Positions 27,291 through 40,658 of a stretch of 64,000 bases of DNA are shown piece after piece. Positions within the stretch are counted from its first letter, which is position 1, and each line of letters starts with the position of its first letter. The stretch comes from Candidatus Companilactobacillus pullicola (GTDB taxonomy: Bacteria > Bacillota > Bacilli > Lactobacillales > Lactobacillaceae), in the NCBI GenBank assembly GCA_019116025.1, contig DXCM01000035.1, forward strand, positions 1-64,000. Direction: 5' to 3'. A model generated the notes under the pieces. It had not been told where the DNA came from. It saw only the letters and a program-made list of their open reading frames with translations, and did no database searches. The position numbers and the translations under genes were made by a program.

Positions 27291-27670
27291 TCGGTAAGTT
27301 ACGAGTAATCGCGGTCTAGTTATCTAGGCTGAGGAAGGTCCACGCCCGCGCGAGCTGAGATGCTTGCAGTGTTTGTGCTTGGCCCAATAAGCCAAGGTAC
27401 CTTCGGGTAACGGCAGCGAAAGCACTAAGGTCCTTTGACTATGTGTTAATAGCTTGAAAGTGCCACAGAGACGGATTATTGTGAGAAATTGCAATGGTGG
27501 AACGAGGTAAACCCCGCAAGCGGGCAACCCAAACTTTGGTAGGGGCGCTTCATAACGAGAAATGAATCTACTGTGAAGGCTTAATTGTAGATAGATGATT
27601 ACTAACTGTGTTAGGATTGCCAGCCTAACATATGAACAGAACGTGGCCTATAGGAATTTATCGAGGCAAA
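27291..27670 (+). ncRNA. rnpB: RNase P RNA (B-type)
   Basis: The conserved RNase P core is visible: GAGTAATCGCGG near 27302, GAGGAAGGTCCACGC near 27333, CGGGTAACGGCAGCGAAAG near 27405 and the universal 3' element ACAGAACGTGGC near 27637. The 5' GGTAAGTT and the 3' AATTTATC pair to form P1. This catalytic RNA trims tRNA 5' leaders. It lies between gpsB and ypsC as in many Firmicutes. Exact ends are uncertain by about 10 nt. Confidence 0.95.
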
Positions 27671-31796: not shown

Positions 31797-33462
31797 TATC
31801 GAAATTGCTCAAATAAATGAGCACGATAATATGAAAAATATTAACGAAATTGCCAACAAAATCGGTTTGACACCAGATGATATTGAACCATATGGACACT
31901 ATAAAGCTAAGTTTTCTGGTCGCAGTATTGCCAAATCAATGGAAAAAGACGATGGAAAACTTATTTTAGTTACATCGATCAATCCAACTCCAGCCGGAGA
32001 GGGTAAATCAACTGTCGCTATCGGATTAGCTGATTCACTTCAATCATTGGGCAAGAAAACTGTTCTAGCATTACGTGAACCTTCATTAGGACCTGTCATG
32101 GGTATGAAGGGTGGCGCCACTGGTGGTGGTTACGCTCAAGTAGTTCCTATGGAAGATATTAATTTACATTTTACAGGCGATATGCACGCCTTAACTTCAG
32201 CTGTTAACACTTTAGCAGCTTTGATCGATAACCATATTCATCAAGGGAACCAATTAAACATTGATCCTCGTCGTATTGTTTGGAAACGTGCTTTAGATAT
32301 TAATGATCGTGCCTTAAGAAATACCGTTATTGGTTTGGGTGGACCATTTAACTCCATGCCACGTGAAGAACACTTTGAAATTACGGTTGCCAGTGAATTA
32401 ATGGCTGTCCTTTGCTTAGCTCAAGACATTGATGATTTGAAAGAAAGAATCTCAAGTATCTTGATTGCTTATACTTTTGACAAGAAACCTATCTTTGTTC
32501 GTGACTTACACATTGAAGGGGCAATCACAGTTCTATTAAAAGATGCTTTGAAACCTAACTTGGTACAAACACTTGAAAACACACCAGCTATCATTCATGG
32601 TGGTCCATTCGCTAATATTGCCCATGGATGTAACAGTATCTTAGCTACTAAACTAGCTATGAAACTAGGCGACTACGCTGTCACAGAAGCTGGATTTGGT
32701 GCTGATCTTGGTGGCGAGAAGTTCATGGATATCGTAACTCCTAGATTGAGTCACGCTCCAAATGCTATCGTCATTGTTGCCACAATTCGTGCTTTGAAGT
32801 ACAACGGTGGTCAGGCTCTTAGTGACATTCAAAATGAAGATCTCAACGCTTTGAATCTTGGTTTCAAGAATTTGAAACGTCATATTCACAACATGCGTTA
32901 TTATCATGTGCCAGTTGTCGTAGCTATCAACAAGTTTGCAACTGATACAGATAACGAAATCAAACTTTTGATCAGTCTCTGTGATGAAGTAGGCGTTGAT
33001 GTACAACTCGCTGAAATCCATCATGAAGGTAGCAAGGGTGGACAAGCTCTAGCTAAAGCTGTTATTAAAGCAACTGAAAAGGAATCACAATACACTCGTC
33101 TTTATGAAGACGAAGAGACTACCGAAGCTAAAATCGCTACGATTGCTTCTGAAGTTTATGGTGCTAACAACGTTGAATACAGTAAAAAGGCTAGAAATCA
33201 ATTACAAGTATTAAAAGATAATGCTTGGGATGACCTACCAATCTGTGTTGCCAAAACACAATATTCACTTAGTGATGATCCTAAACGTCTTGGTAGTCCT
33301 AAAGACTTTACACTTCACGTTACTGATATCGTGCCAAAACTTGGTGCCGGATTCGTCGTTGTCTTAACTGGTAACATTATGACAATGCCTGGTTTACCAA
33401 AGAAACCCGCTGCCTTGAATATGGATGTTGATAATGAAGGAACTATTGGAGGATTATTCTAG
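31780..33462 (+). CDS. fhs: Formate-tetrahydrofolate ligase
   Basis: The 560-residue enzyme makes 10-formyl-THF from formate, THF and ATP for purine and fMet synthesis. Its P-loop is [19 protein letters not shown] near residue 67, followed by [20 protein letters not shown] and the conserved [12 protein letters not shown] at the end. Length is normal. The ATG at 31780 follows AGGTGA. Its stop overlaps the lspA start by one base. Confidence 0.97.
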
Positions 33463-33926
33463 TGCAGTTGATTTATTGGTTGCTTTGCGCAATCTTAATT
33501 GTTGGTGATCAGGGACTTAAATTTTATGTCACCAATAATATTGCTCCAATGAGTGTCCATGAGTTTATTCCAGGAATTCTGTCTATAACACATATCACTA
33601 ATACTGGTGCAGCTTGGAGTATGCTTGAAGGGAAGATGATGTTCTTTTATCTAGTAACTATCATTGCTGTCGTAGTGTTAGTTTATCTTTTCATCAAAGC
33701 TGCTAAAAATGAATACATGTATCGTTTTGCTCTGATTTTCCTTTTAGCGGGAACAATTGGTAACGCAATTGATCGTTTTAGTAGACATTTTGTGGTAGAT
33801 ATGTTTAATTTAGATTTTATGAATTTTCCAATATTTAATTTAGCGGACACTTATATTACGATTGGTGTAATATTAATAATTGTATCTTTGTTTGTCCAAT
33901 TAGCAGGTGAGAAAAATAATAAGTAA
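33462..33926 (+). CDS. lspA: Lipoprotein signal peptidase (SPase II)
   Basis: The 154-residue membrane protease removes lipoprotein signal peptides. Four membrane segments are visible, and the two catalytic Asp lie in GNAIDRF and FNLADTYI. The GTG start at 33462 shares one base with the fhs stop codon and is preceded by GGAGG. It overlaps rluD by 20 nt. Confidence 0.96.
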   Translation: MQLIYWLLCAILIVGDQGLKFYVTNNIAPMSVHEFIPGILSITHITNTGAAWSMLEGKMMFFYLVTIIAVVVLVYLFIKAAKNEYMYRFALIFLLAGTIGNAIDRFSRHFVVDMFNLDFMNFPIFNLADTYITIGVILIIVSLFVQLAGEKNNK

Positions 33927-34827
33927 GTCTTTCGAATTAGAATACAGTGAACCAAAGAAGAATCGTTTAGACGCCTATTTGAATAGTGAATTAGACGATT
34001 TAACCAGATCTCAGATCCAAAAATTAATTAAAGAACAACACATCCTAGTCAATGGTCAGCCAGTTAGTAAAACTGGCTACAAGATCGTAGCTAACGACAA
34101 GATCACGGTCAATATCCCTGAAGAAGAACCTATTAAGGCTGTTCCTGAAGATATTCCAATCGACGTCGTCTATGAAGATCAAGATGTGATTGTCGTCAAT
34201 AAACCCCAGGGAATGGTTGTCCATCCCGCTGCCGGTCATCCAGATAAGACACTCGTAAATGCTATCTTATATCACAGTAAGATCAATGATGACGATGTAG
34301 TACGTCCAGGAATCGTGCACCGTATCGATAAGGACACTTCAGGGCTACTCATGATTGCTAAAAATAATTTAGCTAAACAATCATTGATGAAACAGTTAAA
34401 AGATAAAAGTAATTTACGTGAATATCTGGCAATTGTTCATGGTAACTTTAAAGAGAAAAAAGGAAAGATCAACGCTCCTTTAGGCAGATCAAAGTTTGAT
34501 CGTAAAAAGCAAGCCGTCGTCGAAGATGGTCGTCATGCCGTAACTCACTTTGAAGTTCTAGAACAATTTGAGGACTACTCGTTACTGAAATTGAAACTGG
34601 AAACTGGTCGAACTCATCAAATCAGAGTTCATATGCAATATATTGGTCATCCTGTTGCAGGAGATCCTTTGTATGGCCCTAAGAATACGTTACCTGGTAA
34701 GGGACAATTCTTACATGCTCAGACACTTGGATTTGAGCATCCCAGAACTCATGAGTGGATGCAATTTTCAATCGAGCCTCCAAAAATTTTTCAAGAGACT
34801 CTTAAGCAATTACGTTCTCAACATTAA
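33907..34827 (+). CDS. rluD: 23S rRNA pseudouridine synthase, RluD type
   Basis: The protein of about 306 residues has an N-terminal S4 RNA-binding domain (LDAYLNSELDDLTRSQIQKL) and the catalytic Asp in GIVHRIDKDTSGLLMIAKN. It should isomerise uridines in 23S rRNA helix 69. The start is unclear. The GTG at 33907 has no good ribosome site, while AGGTGA at 33905-33910 would suit an unusual ATA codon at 33916 or 33919. The lspA-rluD-pyrR order is conserved in Firmicutes. Confidence 0.95.
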   Translation: MRKIISKSFELEYSEPKKNRLDAYLNSELDDLTRSQIQKLIKEQHILVNGQPVSKTGYKIVANDKITVNIPEEEPIKAVPEDIPIDVVYEDQDVIVVNKPQGMVVHPAAGHPDKTLVNAILYHSKINDDDVVRPGIVHRIDKDTSGLLMIAKNNLAKQSLMKQLKDKSNLREYLAIVHGNFKEKKGKINAPLGRSKFDRKKQAVVEDGRHAVTHFEVLEQFEDYSLLKLKLETGRTHQIRVHMQYIGHPVAGDPLYGPKNTLPGKGQFLHAQTLGFEHPRTHEWMQFSIEPPKIFQETLKQLRSQH

Positions 34828-34831
34828 GTCG

Positions 34832-34840
34832 TGCTATAAT
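34832..34840 (+). promoter_or_regulatory. Extended -10 promoter of pyrR unit
   Basis: TGCTATAAT is an extended -10 box right after the rluD stop. The -35 region is weak. Transcription would begin near 34847, upstream of the leader terminator. Confidence 0.6.
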
Positions 34841-34877
34841 CTACAAATAGAATTGTGTGCGATTATAAAATAAATTG

Positions 34878-34904
34878 AAGCACTCACTTTGTGAGTGCTT
34901 TTTT
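34878..34904 (+). terminator. Terminator in the pyrR leader (possible attenuator)
   Basis: AAGCACTCAC, a TTT loop and GTGAGTGCTT form a 10-bp stem followed by a T-run, 17 nt before the pyrR start codon and downstream of the putative promoter. It may end the lspA-rluD transcript, attenuate pyrR, or both. Confidence 0.8.
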
Positions 34905-34920
34905 GAAAGTAGGGAAAAAT

Positions 34921-35448
34921 ATGGCTAAAGAAATTATTGACGGTCAAACAATGACTAGAGCTTTGACACGTATAACTTATGAAATTATTGAAAGAAATAA
35001 GGGGATTGAAGATTTAGTCCTTGTCGGAATTAAAACACGCGGAGTTTTCGTAGCTCACCGTATTGAGTCACGTTTAAAACAGTTGGAAAATATCTCTATT
35101 CCTGTCGCTGAATTGGATATAACTCCATATCGCGACGACAAAACACACGAAGAAAAGGATATTTCCGAAGTAAAGACTCAGCCTTTAGATATCGATATCA
35201 ATAACAAACACATTATTTTAACTGACGATGTTTTATACACAGGACGTACGATTCGTGCAGCTATGGATGCCTTAATGAGTTCAGGTCGTCCAAAGAAAAT
35301 TTCTTTGGCTGTATTGGTTGATCGTGGACATCGTGAATTGCCAATCCGCGCTGATTTTGTTGGAAAAAATATACCAACTTCTCAAAAAGAGAAAATCAAA
35401 GTTTCGATGAAAGAAATCGATGGAGAAGATAAGATTGAAATCGAATAA
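34921..35448 (+). CDS. pyrR: PyrR, pyrimidine operon regulator / UPRTase-like
   Basis: The 175-residue protein has the phosphoribosyltransferase fold with the PRPP-binding loop [20 protein letters not shown] and the PyrR-typical ending [18 protein letters not shown]. PyrR binds pyr mRNA leaders when UMP is high and so causes termination. Start ATG at 34921 with AGGG in front. It is followed after 26 nt by the CarA-like and CarB-like genes, so this is a short pyrR-led operon without pyrB or pyrC. The leader lacks the classic PyrR-binding loop I looked for. Confidence 0.95.
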
Positions 35449-35474: not shown

Positions 35475-36563
35475 ATGAAACGTTATTTAATCTTAGAAGA
35501 CGGAACTGTGTTTCCTGGAGAAGGGTTCGGATCTTCTATCATTACCACGGGACAATTGGTAATATCAAATAATCGTACTGGAATTGAACAATCCGTAACC
35601 GATCCTAATGCCGAGGGTCAAATTATTGCATTCACAATTCCTTCTGTTGGTAGCTCAGGAATTAATCGAGATTTTTATGAATCTATCAATTCACAATGTA
35701 AGGGTGTCGTTATCGGTTCATCAAGCACTTCGACTGTTGATGATTCCGTATCCTTTCAAGACTGGATCGCCAGTTTAAGAATACCTGGAATTAAGAACGT
35801 TGATGTCAGAGCTTTATCAAGACACATCGCCGAACATGGTGAAATGAAAGCTAGTATCATGGATACCCATGATGAACATGCTATCGACCAAATTAAGGCG
35901 TTAGTTTTACCACCCGATTTGGTTAAAAGAGTCTCAACACGACAATCGTATCCCAATCCTAATACTGGCTTGAAGATTGTTATTGTTGACTTAGGATTAA
36001 AGTATTCTATTTTACGTCAATTATCATACCGAGATTGTAATTCTATTATTGTCAATTACAACTCGACTGCAAAAGAAATCGAGAACTTGCATCCCGATGG
36101 CATAATCTATTCTAATGGACCAGGTAATCCTAAGGATCTGCCAAATGTCATCAAGACTATTCAAATTTTACAAAAGAGACATCCAATTTTGGGTATTGGC
36201 TTAGGTAACTTGTTGATAGCTTTAGCTAATGATTGTCAAATAATTCCATTAGCTAATCCACATCACGAATCTTCATTGGCAGTTAAGGAAGTCGCCAGTG
36301 GCAAGATTGATTTTGTAAACCATAATCATTCTTATACCTTGGACCAAAAATATATCGGTTCATCCGATTTTATCGTTACCAACATTTGTGTGGCTGATGG
36401 AACGATTGAAGGTATCCGTCATGAATATTTACCAATTATGGGGGTACTCTTCGAACCAGAAGCTGCGCCGGGACCAACTGATGGTTATTATGTCTTCGAT
36501 GAATTTATTGATTTGATCGATTCAGTTAAACAACAAGAGGGGGCTGGAAATCAATGGAATTAA
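35475..36563 (+). CDS. CarA-like protein, glutaminase site lost (pseudo-CPSase small subunit)
   Basis: The 362-residue protein aligns end to end with carbamoyl-phosphate synthase small subunit: LILEDGTVFPGEGFGSS at the start, then the class I glutaminase domain. The catalytic residues are changed. Where CarA has GICLGHQ, this reads GIGLGNL, so the nucleophile Cys is Gly242 (codon GGC). Where CarA has FHPEASPGP, it reads FEPEAAPGP, so the catalytic His is Glu327; only Glu329 remains. Glutamine hydrolysis should be impossible. The frame is intact and the ribosome site is good (AGGAG, 9 nt), so the gene looks maintained. It overlaps the CarB-like gene by 10 nt. Confidence 0.85.
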   Translation: MKRYLILEDGTVFPGEGFGSSIITTGQLVISNNRTGIEQSVTDPNAEGQIIAFTIPSVGSSGINRDFYESINSQCKGVVIGSSSTSTVDDSVSFQDWIASLRIPGIKNVDVRALSRHIAEHGEMKASIMDTHDEHAIDQIKALVLPPDLVKRVSTRQSYPNPNTGLKIVIVDLGLKYSILRQLSYRDCNSIIVNYNSTAKEIENLHPDGIIYSNGPGNPKDLPNVIKTIQILQKRHPILGIGLGNLLIALANDCQIIPLANPHHESSLAVKEVASGKIDFVNHNHSYTLDQKYIGSSDFIVTNICVADGTIEGIRHEYLPIMGVLFEPEAAPGPTDGYYVFDEFIDLIDSVKQQEGAGNQWN

Positions 36564-38944
36564 ACGAAGTACACACAATTCTAATTATCGGCCCAACAAT
36601 TAGTGATAAAAATGTTGATTTGTCGACCGCACTTTACGATACAGTAGATATCTTGCACCAATTAGGATACAAACTCTCTATTATCGTCGAAGATCCAACT
36701 TCACTGCTTTCTTCAGGTAGTTTTTTCGATAAAACTATTGTTGAAAAAGTCAGCGGTGAAAATGTTTTAAAATTTGTTCAAAAATATCATCCTGACGCTA
36801 TTTTGCCAACAGTAGGGGACCGTAATGCTCTGGGAATCGTATCCAGTCTGAATGGTAAAATTGGCACCACTAAGATACTAGGAGCAAATTACGCATCTTC
36901 TTTAGCTACTTTTAAACGTGATTTGTTCATCAAACGTTTGAACAAAGCTAAATTACCAGTTATTAACTTCATCTCTTCAGATGATGAAAAAGAAATTTAT
37001 AGTTTTATCCGTTCAATTGGTTTTCCCATTATTGCCAGAAGACGTTACTCTAATCGTCATTCTAGTGGTTGGACTAATATCAACAATCTATTTGAACTTG
37101 ATAATTTTATGGCTTTAGATGATTTGGATGACACCAAGATTGAAATCGAAAGAAGTATTCGTGGTTTTAGTGAATATTCCTTTACGATTTTAAGAGATAG
37201 TTTTGACAACTCATCATTAGTAGGCACAATTGAAGATATTGAGCCTATTGGTATTCATCATCTGGATTCCAATTTAATATCGCCAGCAATTTCTCTGAAC
37301 GATTCTAAATTACAACGTTTAAGAAATTATTCGATCAAATTAGCACGAGTTTTCAATATCGTGGGAGTCTGTACCGTTCATTTTGCTTACAATCACACTA
37401 CTAACGAAAGCTATATAACCGAATTTATCCCTCGTTTGAGTGAGGAAACTAAGTTCCTTGAATATGCGACAAGTTACCCTGTAGCTACAGCCGTTGCTGA
37501 ATTGTGTGTTGGTTTTCATTTGGACAAGTTGCAACTAGATGCTGGTAACTTTTTCAACGGTGCAACTGAACCTTTCGTTGATCATATCACTTCACGTTTC
37601 CCACAGTGGAATACGCCTGGTCAAAAATATCTGGGTCCTAGTAAAACTTCGAACTCCAGCATTATCGTTAATGGCTTCAGTCTTGAAGAAGTCCTTAACA
37701 AGGGCGCTCTCAATGACAAATTAAATAATAATTTTAAACGTTATGAAGAACTTCGTAAGTTAGATGATGATGAGTTATTTGAAAAAATCATTCATCCTAC
37801 TAACTGGATGTTAGATGTTTTGATGGAAGCAATGCGTCGAAACTTTGAAAAACCTGTCTTATCAGAAATTACTGGCATCAACATGCCATACTTGACGGCT
37901 TTGCAAAATATCATTGATAATAGCTTGATTATCCGTGAAGGTGAAATCGATGGTAATAACGTCGAACGCATGGTTGAAATGGGTGTCAAAGGCGTTGGCC
38001 ATAGTAAATTATTGTTGGACAGTCCTGATATTGTTACTAAGTCGGTTGTAAAGAGTAAGACATCTATTTCTGTAGCTAATAAGGATTATCCTAACCATAA
38101 CTACTTTGTTACGAGTGGTATCAATAATGAGTTGGAATTAAGCGACCGCAAAAAAATTATTGTTCGTACACCAATCATCACGTCTAAAACTGATACAACT
38201 ATCAGACAATTTGTTTTGTTCCAATTAGCTAAGTCGATTGATCAAAATGGTTTGGAACCTATCATAATTGGCCGTGAACCTTGGAACGCACCACTAGTAA
38301 TGCGCCGAAAGATCGTTGAAATTGACGATCCTCATATGGAAATGAGCTCATTGGATTTGATACCTAGTAAGAGTATTTTAAATATTATCGATTTATCAAA
38401 GAATCTAGTTGATACAGACGATAAACGTGTTTTTCAATTCAGTGCGCAAGAGATTAAAAATATGGATCTCAAGGCCAATACTTCTGCCAGAGTAATGGTT
38501 GTTTCCGATGGAGAAAACTTCCTAGTACCATCAGTTATTTACCGAACTAAGAAAAATAATCATCTCTATGAAGTTAGTTCCGTCAATAATTTTATGACAC
38601 AGTCTAACTATGATGAATTTAACCATTTGATTGCTCAAGAATTAGAGAAAGACGATCAAGTCGCTATCTATAATTTTGAAATGATCAAACAAGAGGATCA
38701 CTGGTTAGTAACTAAGAAGTATCGTGGCATGACTAACGATATTATTCGACACGAATTAGCTAGTTCGGTTCATGTTATTGATACGCTGGTGAAGTTGTTG
38801 CTCGGAAATAAGATAGGCGCTGACTTATCATTGGATGAAATATTCAATAATGCTGACGAGCAGTATCTTTTAACGATTGACGACAAACGCTATAAGTTAT
38901 TGAATAAAGAAGAAATGCAAAAGACTGTAGATGAATTAGATTAA
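36554..38944 (+). CDS. CarB-like protein, shortened and active-site-degenerate
   Basis: This 796-residue protein resembles carbamoyl-phosphate synthase large subunit (normally about 1,060). Residues 1-395 follow the first synthetase domain (RDLFIKRLNKAKLPV, IEDIEPIGIHHLDS, YPVATAVAELCVGF). However, the ATP-grasp glycine loop is replaced by RRRYSNRHSSGW (162-173), and the metal-site ENNPR motif reads EFIPR (290-294). Residues about 395-500 match the oligomerisation domain (FEKIIHPTNWMLDVLMEAMR). After about 500 the second synthetase is only a remnant, with about 200 residues I cannot match well. It cannot be a working synthase by these criteria. It ends at a strong terminator. Confidence 0.82.
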   Translation: MELNEVHTILIIGPTISDKNVDLSTALYDTVDILHQLGYKLSIIVEDPTSLLSSGSFFDKTIVEKVSGENVLKFVQKYHPDAILPTVGDRNALGIVSSLNGKIGTTKILGANYASSLATFKRDLFIKRLNKAKLPVINFISSDDEKEIYSFIRSIGFPIIARRRYSNRHSSGWTNINNLFELDNFMALDDLDDTKIEIERSIRGFSEYSFTILRDSFDNSSLVGTIEDIEPIGIHHLDSNLISPAISLNDSKLQRLRNYSIKLARVFNIVGVCTVHFAYNHTTNESYITEFIPRLSEETKFLEYATSYPVATAVAELCVGFHLDKLQLDAGNFFNGATEPFVDHITSRFPQWNTPGQKYLGPSKTSNSSIIVNGFSLEEVLNKGALNDKLNNNFKRYEELRKLDDDELFEKIIHPTNWMLDVLMEAMRRNFEKPVLSEITGINMPYLTALQNIIDNSLIIREGEIDGNNVERMVEMGVKGVGHSKLLLDSPDIVTKSVVKSKTSISVANKDYPNHNYFVTSGINNELELSDRKKIIVRTPIITSKTDTTIRQFVLFQLAKSIDQNGLEPIIIGREPWNAPLVMRRKIVEIDDPHMEMSSLDLIPSKSILNIIDLSKNLVDTDDKRVFQFSAQEIKNMDLKANTSARVMVVSDGENFLVPSVIYRTKKNNHLYEVSSVNNFMTQSNYDEFNHLIAQELEKDDQVAIYNFEMIKQEDHWLVTKKYRGMTNDIIRHELASSVHVIDTLVKLLLGNKIGADLSLDEIFNNADEQYLLTIDDKRYKLLNKEEMQKTVDELD

Positions 38945-38993: not shown

Positions 38994-40658
38994 TTATTTA
39001 GCTTTTAAATCAGCCACTAGTTGACGATCTGGATCAACTAAAATCGTCTTTTGACCCTCAAAGATAACGTAACCTGGTTTAGCACCATTAGGTTTACGAA
39101 TATTTTTGATTTTAACGTAATCAACGGGAACTTTGCTTGAATCACGAGCCTTTGAATAATAGGCTGCAATCGTTGCGGCTTCAGTAATTGACTGTTCATC
39201 GGGATCGCTAGACTTCAAGATAACGTGTGAACCAGGAATATCTTTCACATGGAACCAGTAGTGATTCTTTTGTGACAACTTCATGGTTAGCTGATCATTT
39301 TCGATATTATTCTTACCAACAACAATATCTACACCAGTCGATGATTGGAATTCTTCACCAACATGCTTCTTACGTTTCTTACGTCCATTACGACGTTTTT
39401 TCTTGATATAGCCGGAATCAACTAATTCGTCAACAATACCATCGACATCTTCAATGTCAACATACTCAAGAGATGCCAACACAGACTCTAAGTAATTAAC
39501 CTCATTAGTAGTTATCTCTAACTGCTCTTTGATATGAGGAATCGAGTTTTGTAACTTACGATATTTCTTGTAATAGTGCTGAGCATTGTCAGAAGGGGAG
39601 TACTCTGGATTCAACTTAATTTTGACATCTTCGTTATTGTAATAGTTATTCAAAACAATCGAACTAGCTCCACGTTTAACTTGTGACATATAAGTCGTCA
39701 ACAATTCACCGTAAAGATTATATTTTGCCATAATATCAGTTTGTGACAACTGTTTATTAAGCTTTTTGATCTTGGATTTATCTTTTTTCAAGATAATATC
39801 CAAACGATGGGTAATACTCTTAGTTTGTTGCTCAATACGGTCAACTCTAGCCTTATCAAGATAATAATTATCCAAGAGCTCACTCAAACTAGTATAAGTA
39901 TTAACTATTTCGGTTGTATTATTAAACCCAATAGGGAAAAAACCTAATTTGTGTTTATCATTTGAATTGGCTGTGTTTGGAGCTAAGTGATTTTCATATA
40001 GATCGATGAAATCATCCAGTGATCCGCCAGCTGCGACAAATTTTTCTAATTCGGCGGAAGTGTCTAAGCCAATTCCTTCATACTTTTGACGAATATCGGC
40101 TGCTGAGAAATCTTTAAGATTTTCATCTTTCGTTGAAAATGGATTGATTTTATTCTGTGCAGGCGGTAACTTATAATCGTCCCCAGGTAGAAGGCCACGG
40201 AAGCTATTATTCTCTGGAGAAACACGTTTAATTAGGTCAATGATCTTGCCATTTTCCTTATTTACAAGAAAAATATTGCTGTGTCGACTCATGATTTCAA
40301 TGATCAATCGATATTCGTGAATATCGCCTAGTTCATTCTTAGCACTTAAATCGACCATTACGATACGGTCATTATTTAATTGCTTGAAATCTTGAACAAT
40401 CGCACTAGTGATATACTTTCTTAATGACATAACAAAAGTTGAAGGTTTTGCAGGGTTAGCGAAGGGCTGATCCGTAATTTGAACTCTTGCGTATGAGGGA
40501 TGAGCTGATAATAATAGTTGTTGATTCTTGCGATTACTTCTAATTGTAAGGATCAATTCATTAGCGAACGGTTGTTGAATTTTAGCAATTCTGCCGCCGC
40601 GGAGGTTCTGATTCAATTCGTTTACCATCACATGGGTAAACATTCCGTCAAAGGACAT
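38994..40658 (-). CDS. rqcH: RqcH / NFACT-family ribosome quality-control protein (FbpA homologue)
   Basis: The 554-residue protein has the NFACT-N start (FDGMFTHVMVNELNQNLRGG), a long central coiled coil (about 270-415) and the NFACT-R domain with HYWFHVKDIPGSHVIL. In Bacillus RqcH adds alanine tails to chains stuck on 50S subunits; older work on this family names it fibronectin-binding protein FbpA. AGGAAG precedes the ATG. Convergent with the pseudo-car genes. Confidence 0.93.
   Translation of the reverse strand: MSFDGMFTHVMVNELNQNLRGGRIAKIQQPFANELILTIRSNRKNQQLLLSAHPSYARVQITDQPFANPAKPSTFVMSLRKYITSAIVQDFKQLNNDRIVMVDLSAKNELGDIHEYRLIIEIMSRHSNIFLVNKENGKIIDLIKRVSPENNSFRGLLPGDDYKLPPAQNKINPFSTKDENLKDFSAADIRQKYEGIGLDTSAELEKFVAAGGSLDDFIDLYENHLAPNTANSNDKHKLGFFPIGFNNTTEIVNTYTSLSELLDNYYLDKARVDRIEQQTKSITHRLDIILKKDKSKIKKLNKQLSQTDIMAKYNLYGELLTTYMSQVKRGASSIVLNNYYNNEDVKIKLNPEYSPSDNAQHYYKKYRKLQNSIPHIKEQLEITTNEVNYLESVLASLEYVDIEDVDGIVDELVDSGYIKKKRRNGRKKRKKHVGEEFQSSTGVDIVVGKNNIENDQLTMKLSQKNHYWFHVKDIPGSHVILKSSDPDEQSITEAATIAAYYSKARDSSKVPVDYVKIKNIRKPNGAKPGYVIFEGQKTILVDPDRQLVADLKAK

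Follow-up and report, generated by a model that had tools for sequence, protein, structure and literature searches.

Why would a lactobacillus keep, directly behind pyrR, a second pair of carbamoyl-phosphate synthase (CPS) genes whose products appear unable to make carbamoyl phosphate? We addressed this question in a 64,000-nucleotide stretch of DNA from Candidatus Companilactobacillus pullicola (contig DXCM01000035.1, positions 1 to 64,000; hereafter the window), which belongs to contig C9 in a genome of 2.93 Mb and 99 contigs (completeness 99.4, contamination 8.2). A CarA-like gene (35475..36563; plus strand, like all features below unless stated; 362 residues from its likely ATG) overlaps by 10 bases an open CarB-like reading frame of 796 residues (36554..38944); that both frames are open and overlap had been described in a first-pass annotation of the DNA letters. 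The CarB-like gene has its nearest named relative in Companilactobacillus kimchii (94% identical). Judged from their residues, the two products, here termed pseudo-CarA and pseudo-CarB, represent a pseudo-CPS in which both subunits appear to be inactivated and which is retained as protein without CPS activity. The first-pass annotation had likewise favored such a pair over a decaying gene, and this view is supported because catalytic residues are lost in both subunits, the genes are under purifying selection, the pair is conserved across the family and its synteny with pyrR is kept. Both folds are predicted to be preserved while catalytic residues are gone and selection persists, the features that characterize a pseudoenzyme, which suggests an enzyme turned into a regulator or sensor.

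Catalytic residues of the two subunits

Residues were called by alignment to Escherichia coli CarA and CarB, and E. coli numbering is used throughout. Pseudo-CarA of the window, with its Pfam CPSase_sm_chain and GATase domains, has Gly in place of the catalytic Cys269 (GIGLG for GICLG, codon 36198..36200) and Glu in place of the catalytic His353 (FEPE for FHPE, codon 36453..36455), so that the class I glutaminase triad Cys-His-Glu is broken with Glu355 retained. The CarA-like partner invoked by the first-pass annotation thus looks as dead as pseudo-CarB itself. It passes the curated model NF009475 (347.1, cut-off 221) and narrowly misses TIGR01368 (301.2, cut-off 307.35). Gly occupies position 269 in all 51 CarA sequences linked to a short CarB, and Cys in all six canonical Lactobacillaceae rows of the alignment. 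Among 117 CarA rows, near-copies included, His353 is retained in only two of the 83 with Gly and in 33 of the 34 with Cys.

Pseudo-CarB falls below the curated cut-offs for its family (NCBIfam CPSaseII_lrg, 203.6 bits with a cut-off of 1027; PRK05294, 213.9 with a cut-off of 599). As had been noticed before, the glycine loop of the first synthetase is replaced: where canonical CarB reads RPx(F/Y)T(L/M)GG(S/T)GGG, the window protein has RRRYSNRHSSGW (residues 162-173; 37037..37072). This segment is largely invariant across 27 aligned pseudo-CarB sequences, and the GGxGGG loop, judged by eye, occurs in none of 51 short-type CarB rows. The sequence EFIPR (residues 290-294; 37421..37435) keeps Glu and Arg and has lost Asn; the first-pass annotation had read EFIPR correctly, but the canonical form is ExNPR rather than the ENNPR it had assumed. 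Gln285 and Asn301 are Mg ligands, and in the window they are replaced by His and Ile, respectively. All 28 canonical CarB rows retain R129, R169, G175, G176, E215, H243, Q285, E299, N301, R303 and the second-site set. In the 66 short CarB rows, G175 is retained in 12, R129 in 11, E299 and N301 in 14 each and R303 in 8, and the second-site residues R715, G721, G722 and D753 of the ATP-grasp fold lie in gaps in every row. Occupancy of the MGS region (E. coli 936-1073) is 3% in short rows versus 90% in canonical ones. On these residues, the window pair almost certainly has no CPS activity.

Could the remodelled first site carry out a different chemistry? The window protein retains R129, R169, E215, the GIH243 motif, E299 and R303, the equivalents of these residues survive in its clade, and a new motif, RRRxxNRxSSGWT, is close to fixation there. 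A neofunctionalised enzyme of this kind is nevertheless very unlikely, given the loss of the glycine loop, Gln285, Asn301 and the whole second site in the window, the replacement of E299 by Lys or Arg in 52 of the 66 short rows and the rarity of R303 among them. In mammalian CPS I (CPS1), a CarA-like domain lacks the catalytic Cys and persists in a non-catalytic capacity; the enzyme retains its two ATP sites and uses ammonia to produce carbamoyl phosphate. The pair resembles CPS1 in its Cys-less CarA-like part, but both of its ATP sites are broken. We ruled out an ammonia-dependent CPS, since even the full-length CarB rows of five loci described below (L155, L170, L171, L172 and L264) have a broken second site.

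Predicted fold and C-terminal part of pseudo-CarB

The first-pass annotation had described the second synthetase as a remnant followed by about 200 unmatched residues, a strange C-terminal part. The remnant is there; the residues supposed to be unmatched are not strange, because they align as a shrunken second synthetase. The last ~270 residues (527-796; 38132..38941) comprise a pre-ATP-grasp fold followed by the C-lobe, with the N-lobe and lid mostly deleted, and the C-terminal allosteric (MGS) domain is absent. In genera that have diverged less, this region can readily be aligned to canonical CarB as far as the C-lobe.

Structure prediction agreed with this assignment. An AlphaFold2 model computed from the window protein and 26 locus relatives reached a predicted local distance difference test score (pLDDT) of 73 and a predicted template modelling score (pTM) of 0.72; Foldseek ranked E. 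coli CarB first among the matches to it (E 1.6e-40 over 911 alignment columns), and mammalian CPS I was also matched. Residues 527-796 modelled alone gave a pLDDT of 86, and the seven best matches of this model in the PDB were CPS large chains (1m6v_A on top, E 9.4e-9 to 8.6e-8), followed by other ATP-grasp enzymes (PylC, E 5.2e-7; pyruvate carboxylase, E 8.9e-7). Fusion to a foreign C-terminal domain was ruled out, as alignment, model and Foldseek all identified the C-terminus as CPS. The oligomerisation domain is recognisable, as had been claimed, in the form of a remnant seen by alignment (residues ~400-480; 37751..37993), though it scores under the cut-off of Pfam CPSase_L_D3 (20.1 vs 26.6 bits). 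The pair is like CarAB (EC 6.3.5.5, the pyr-operon type of Lactobacillales and Bacillus) in both predicted folds and in its overlapping carA-carB order, and unlike it in having neither the catalytic Cys and His, nor an intact ATP site, the second ATP-grasp N-lobe or the allosteric domain.

Distribution and selection

A profile search of genome contigs with the genus alignment returned 29 loci (27 named Companilactobacillus, one uncultured Lactobacillus and one Lactobacillus sp.), and in every one of them pyrR, a carA-like gene with Gly and a carB-like gene followed in this order at full length. Whether the gene is broken in sister strains, a question raised by the first-pass annotation, was followed up in these loci from other species of the genus. 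The 29 loci, together with five of five sampled genomes of the same genus, rule out that the gene is broken or its sequence erroneous. Farther afield, a profile search of 397 genomes together with a sample of 151 Lactobacillaceae genomes revealed a second, short CarB in many genera. At least 76 of the 151 genomes carry a short CarB frame (791-901 residues in 75 of them, 643 in one), a hand-compiled lower bound based on frame length, Gly having been read in the fetched loci only. The profile matched in all 26 sampled genomes of the window's genus, at a threshold that lets canonical CarB through as well and does not separate dead from active CarB. No short CarB was found among the matches listed for genera g11, g12, g25, g30 and g31, in which the pyrR site itself was not inspected. 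The 69 fetched Lactobacillaceae loci with a Gly-CarA had rluD upstream in 68, and their CarB measured 643-901 residues in 65 and 1054-1067 in four. The ten best listed PLSDB records contained ordinary carB or were unannotated. Arginine-type CarB exists as a class of its own; we rejected this identity for the short CarB, since the matches of ~1020-1040 residues with 55-60% to canonical CarB are separate places, whose sites were not read.

Canonical CarB (E<=1e-300) is missing from 21 of the 76 short-CarB genomes, two of which belong to the window's genus. In 20 of the 21, there is a single CarB-like match of any kind, and 14 have no aspartate carbamoyltransferase (ATCase) over cut-off. This distribution bears on the idea that the dead subunits act as a regulatory paralogue, joining canonical CarA or CarB in mixed oligomers to tune carbamoyl-phosphate synthesis. 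The retained oligomerisation and A-half folds and the canonical carAB in the window's genome would be compatible with it, but the genomes devoid of canonical CarB argue against such a partnership, as does the identity of only 25-29% between pseudo-CarB and the canonical CarB of its genus. We consider mixed oligomers clearly unlikely.

The ratio of nonsynonymous to synonymous substitutions (dN/dS) against C. kimchii was 0.031 for pseudo-CarA and 0.020 for pseudo-CarB, similar to rluD (0.025) and rqcH (0.032), and among the comparisons with dS <2 it was 0.02-0.04 for both pair genes. Several dS values were saturated, so that only close pairs count; one saturated pair (L115) gave 0.153 for pseudo-CarB. 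Between the window genome and genome G128, dN was 0.062 for pseudo-CarA versus 0.130 for canonical CarA. The last part of pseudo-CarB evolves fastest (dN 0.28 vs 0.08 for the first 400 codons). Both genes are under strong purifying selection, and we hold it as nearly certain that the pair has a maintained function.

Ancestral pyr-operon site and graded loss

In Bacillus velezensis, the gene order is lspA, an RluA-family gene, pyrR, pyrP, pyrB, pyrC, carA, carB, pyrK, pyrD, pyrF, pyrE and, further on, the NFACT gene (rqcH). The window has fhs, lspA, rluD, pyrR and the carA-like and carB-like genes on the plus strand, followed by a convergent rqcH homologue on the minus strand (38994..40658) and degV; lspA with rluD (33462..34827) and rqcH serve as upstream and downstream synteny markers. 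The pair thus shares with pyr-operon CarAB the chromosomal site lspA-rluD-pyrR-...-carA-carB-...-rqcH. Among 20 loci fetched from further families of Lactobacillales, 12 (L174-L182, L184, L186 and L190) have a complete pyrR-to-pyrE set behind rluD; CarA has the catalytic Cys in 19 of the 20 and Gly in one (L191).

Some Lactobacillaceae carry intermediate arrangements. Four loci (L172, L155, L171 and L170) have pyrR-pyrP-carA(Gly) with a full-length carB, and L040 has pyrR-pyrP-carA(Gly)-carB with a CarB of 643 residues and pyrF and pyrE nearby. In L155 (genus g21), a Gly-CarA accompanies a 1054-residue CarB with every listed first-site residue retained and the second site destroyed. Because the first site looks intact while the glutaminase and second site are broken, the bicarbonate-activating half would be the last to be lost in L155, and this CarB may still bind or activate bicarbonate. 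In L172 (genus g10), CarA has Gly and the full-length CarB, 55% identical to canonical CarB, retains the glycine loop, N301 and R303 and has lost R129, Q285 and E299, which looks like an early stage of decay. L264 (genus g33) combines, at the same site, a CarA that has Cys and neither His353 nor Glu355 with a 1066-residue CarB broken at both ATP sites, apparently a different route to losing the same activity.

This graded loss across genera, from full-length CarB with a broken second site to truncation, and the speed at which pseudo-CarB evolves in its last part might be read as slow decay without function. Such a reading is disfavored and highly improbable, as it conflicts with the low dN/dS of both genes, with the full-length frames in 29 of 29 loci and with the profile matches in all sampled genomes of the window's genus, a test that canonical CarB can pass too.

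All phylogenetic trees were quick searches with many weak forks. In the CarA trees, dead CarA groups, with moderate support, with the pyr-operon CarA of other Lactobacillales and not with the canonical CarA encoded in the same genome. The pair descends from the pyr-operon CarAB of ancestral Lactobacillales, and the ancestry of the site is established. Canonical Lactobacillaceae carA (L085, L086, L087, L088 and L266) lay outside the Lactobacillales pyr-operon carA group in these trees and may, for this reason, have been gained or kept from another lineage. The active-type CarA of L168 was placed within the dead Lactobacillaceae group by the first CarA tree and outside it by the second, which placed the CarA of L264 within the group.

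Loss has also been found outside the Lactobacillaceae. In genus g43 of family f4, which we infer to be Streptococcus-like, Gly-CarA occurs in 10 of 15 sampled genomes (eight of them ~98% alike) and is the sole CarA match of those genomes at E<=1e-40. The three loci that were read completely (L191, L259 and L260) encode a CarB of 577-579 residues, shorter than in lactobacilli, and the order is pyrR-(pyrB)-carA(Gly)-carB. By its residues, this unit appears to be a second dead CPS pair. In the first CarA tree (99 of 109 rows, with 10 near-copies dropped), the streptococcal-type dead CarA joined the streptococcal-type active CarA with a support of 96. For the second (91 of 117 rows), an approximately unbiased (AU) test did not reject one common origin of the streptococcal-type and Lactobacillaceae dead CarA (p 0.479), and a tree of the CarB A-half (53 of 103 rows) joined the two dead groups (98.9) on very long branches.

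Linkage to PyrR and leader sequences

The pyrR gene in front of the pair (34921..35448; 175 residues from its likely ATG) matches the NCBIfam PyrR equivalog NF003548 (280.6 bits, cut-off 218) and is the one PyrR match of the window genome at E<=1e-20. The ATG codons at 34921 and 35475 are the most likely starts of pyrR and the carA-like gene, rather than the first GTG or TTG in the list of open reading frames. The spread of the pair and its synteny with pyrR held up when followed across the family: pyrR lies directly upstream in 64 of the 69 Lactobacillaceae Gly-CarA loci, 15 of which were fetched around a pyrR match and are hence biased towards it, and in 45 of the 50 fetched by CarB alone. 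In the 14 genomes with neither canonical CarB nor ATCase, pyrR, the one PyrR match in each, is directly upstream of the pair in every case (L163 and L167 having been fetched around pyrR); CPS and ATCase therefore seem to have been lost while pyrR and the pair were kept. A PyrR box was detected in 12 of these 14 genomes, over cut-off in six. The best box precedes a uracil permease in G013, G024, G044, G076 and probably G051, pyrF-pyrE in G131 and genes not recognised in the remaining six. RF00515 matches the window genome at four places, with one of the scores over cut-off. Two tandem matches precede pyrB-pyrC-pyrF-pyrE-pyrD, and canonical carAB and a uracil-type permease are each preceded by a single match.

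The leader of the pyrR-carA-like-carB-like unit (34835..34905), ahead of the pyrR ATG, is a possible attenuator with a promoter-like -10 site (TATAAT, 34835-34840) and a terminator-like hairpin with a T run (34878-34900). In an alignment of 24 leaders, which omitted six of 30 (L109, L110, L112, L115, L117 and L118), the hairpin was by eye retained with changed stems, and hairpin and promoter-like site are kept in the genus. The PyrR-loop motif occurs in 12 of 94 pyrR leaders, about one being expected by chance in all 94 as estimated from the pattern; two of these leaders (L157 and L168) come from loci other than pair loci and two (L117/L118) are repeats of L038/L039, which leaves eight distinct pair loci, L. 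plantarum included. In all three streptococcal-type genomes searched, a PyrR box over cut-off lies directly before the pyrR of the dead pair. A very conserved segment precedes the hairpin and pyrR in the window (34841-34920) and in L090-L116, of the type TAGAATTGTGTGCGATTATA, or TGTGAGA in other species; it may be a derived PyrR attenuator or another one. Three Companilactobacillus species (L109, L110 and L112) have a different hairpin in the pyrR leader, AGCTAGGGC...GTCCTGGCT. Elsewhere in the window, a class B RNase P RNA is located at 27297-27655 (RF00011, 292.8 bits).

The PyrR pair of Lactobacillus plantarum

One sampled genome, G258 (3.3 Mb), was identified as L. plantarum by its pyruvate oxidase, which differs at one of 603 residues from PDB 4fee, taken to be the enzyme of L. 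plantarum. It has two PyrR proteins, one heading pyrB-pyrC-carA(Cys)-carB-pyrD-pyrF-pyrE with a CarB of 1058 residues, the other standing behind rluD and before a Gly-CarA and an 853-residue CarB. Papers on L. plantarum reportedly write pyrAa1/pyrAb1, which would imply that pyrAa2/pyrAb2 have already been named. PyrR2 of L. plantarum is reported to answer to inorganic carbon (PMC3582564; reference title in PMC5712122), and a table lists lp_1782 as pyrR2 (PMC7911632). By exclusion, PyrR2 would be the PyrR in front of the dead pair, the neighbours having been read in G258. The window locus is like this pyrR2 locus in its arrangement, but its genome has one PyrR match, whereas L. plantarum has another PyrR in the pyr operon. 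Our literature searches found no receptor described for the inorganic-carbon signal of PyrR2. They also returned no description of a conserved dead CPS pair, most subscription journals lying outside their coverage.

A possible regulatory role

We propose that the ancestral pyr-operon CarAB lost its glutaminase and ATP-dependent chemistry, and that the pair now works with the neighbouring PyrR as a ligand-sensing, non-catalytic regulatory partner. The two proteins would form a CarAB-like complex without turnover, as the gene overlap only suggests, and might still bind one of the small molecules that fitted the former CPS pocket, be it a nucleotide or an anion (for example, bicarbonate or phosphate). 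The ligand-bound pair could then modulate the control of attenuators by PyrR, which in the window genome would concern those before pyrBCFED, canonical carAB and the uracil-type permease. HisZ, the enzyme-derived regulatory subunit of ATP phosphoribosyltransferase with a fold unrelated to the pair, may serve as a working analogy of a dead enzyme acting as regulatory partner of a phosphoribosyltransferase-type protein. We favor the partnership with PyrR tentatively, as an explanation somewhat short of an even chance.

Several observations weigh against this picture. E299 and R303 survive in the window's pseudo-CarB, and among the 66 short CarB rows Q285 is retained in 39, E215 in 61 and H243 in 62. 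When the window genome is compared with G128, pseudo-CarB is the faster-evolving of the two CarB proteins (dN 0.125 vs 0.087 for canonical CarB). RF00515 was not found in the window, and in the pyrR leader not even at a relaxed threshold; it precedes the pair's own pyrR in only two of 20 Lactobacillaceae genomes so arranged (G069 and G044), both below cut-off. In genus g37, the stretch that was read (L168) encodes two PyrR but lacks a dead pair, and in five of the 69 loci (L044, L059, L060, L076 and L079; genera g3 and g5) the pair has no adjacent pyrR, which lies elsewhere. The linkage is also partly inherited, because the ancestral operon had PyrR and carAB side by side. The latter two points, together with the persistence of the pair in genomes without CPS and ATCase, would suit a pseudoenzyme complex acting outside PyrR as a scaffold or metabolite sensor, for instance in salvage, the stringent response or nitrogen metabolism, with the pyrR linkage merely inherited. 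However, pyrR has stayed directly upstream in all 14 such genomes even though pyrP, pyrB and pyrC have gone from between, and PyrR-type leader motifs precede the unit in eight distinct loci. We regard a role outside PyrR as possible, if on the unlikely side.

Returning to the partnership with PyrR, the assignment of the inorganic-carbon-responsive PyrR2 to the dead pair leads to a sensor hypothesis, in which inorganic carbon or carbamoyl phosphate would be the ligand and the pair the missing sensor of PyrR2. In this specific form, the proposal is quite doubtful. Were it true, a former bicarbonate-activating enzyme would bind its old substrate without turnover and relay the signal to a protein that controls attenuation by binding RNA.

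A central biosynthetic enzyme has apparently been inactivated in both of its subunits together, and these have been retained across a bacterial family with uses in food and probiotics. Annotation of the pair as CPS would lead to wrong predictions of prototrophy in metabolic models, in particular for the short-CarB genomes without canonical CarB. The pair adjoins a known regulator with a reported inorganic-carbon signal in L. plantarum, so that the question of the receptor becomes testable. If the sensor hypothesis is correct, lactobacilli would set their pyrimidine synthesis and uracil uptake by the supply of CO2.

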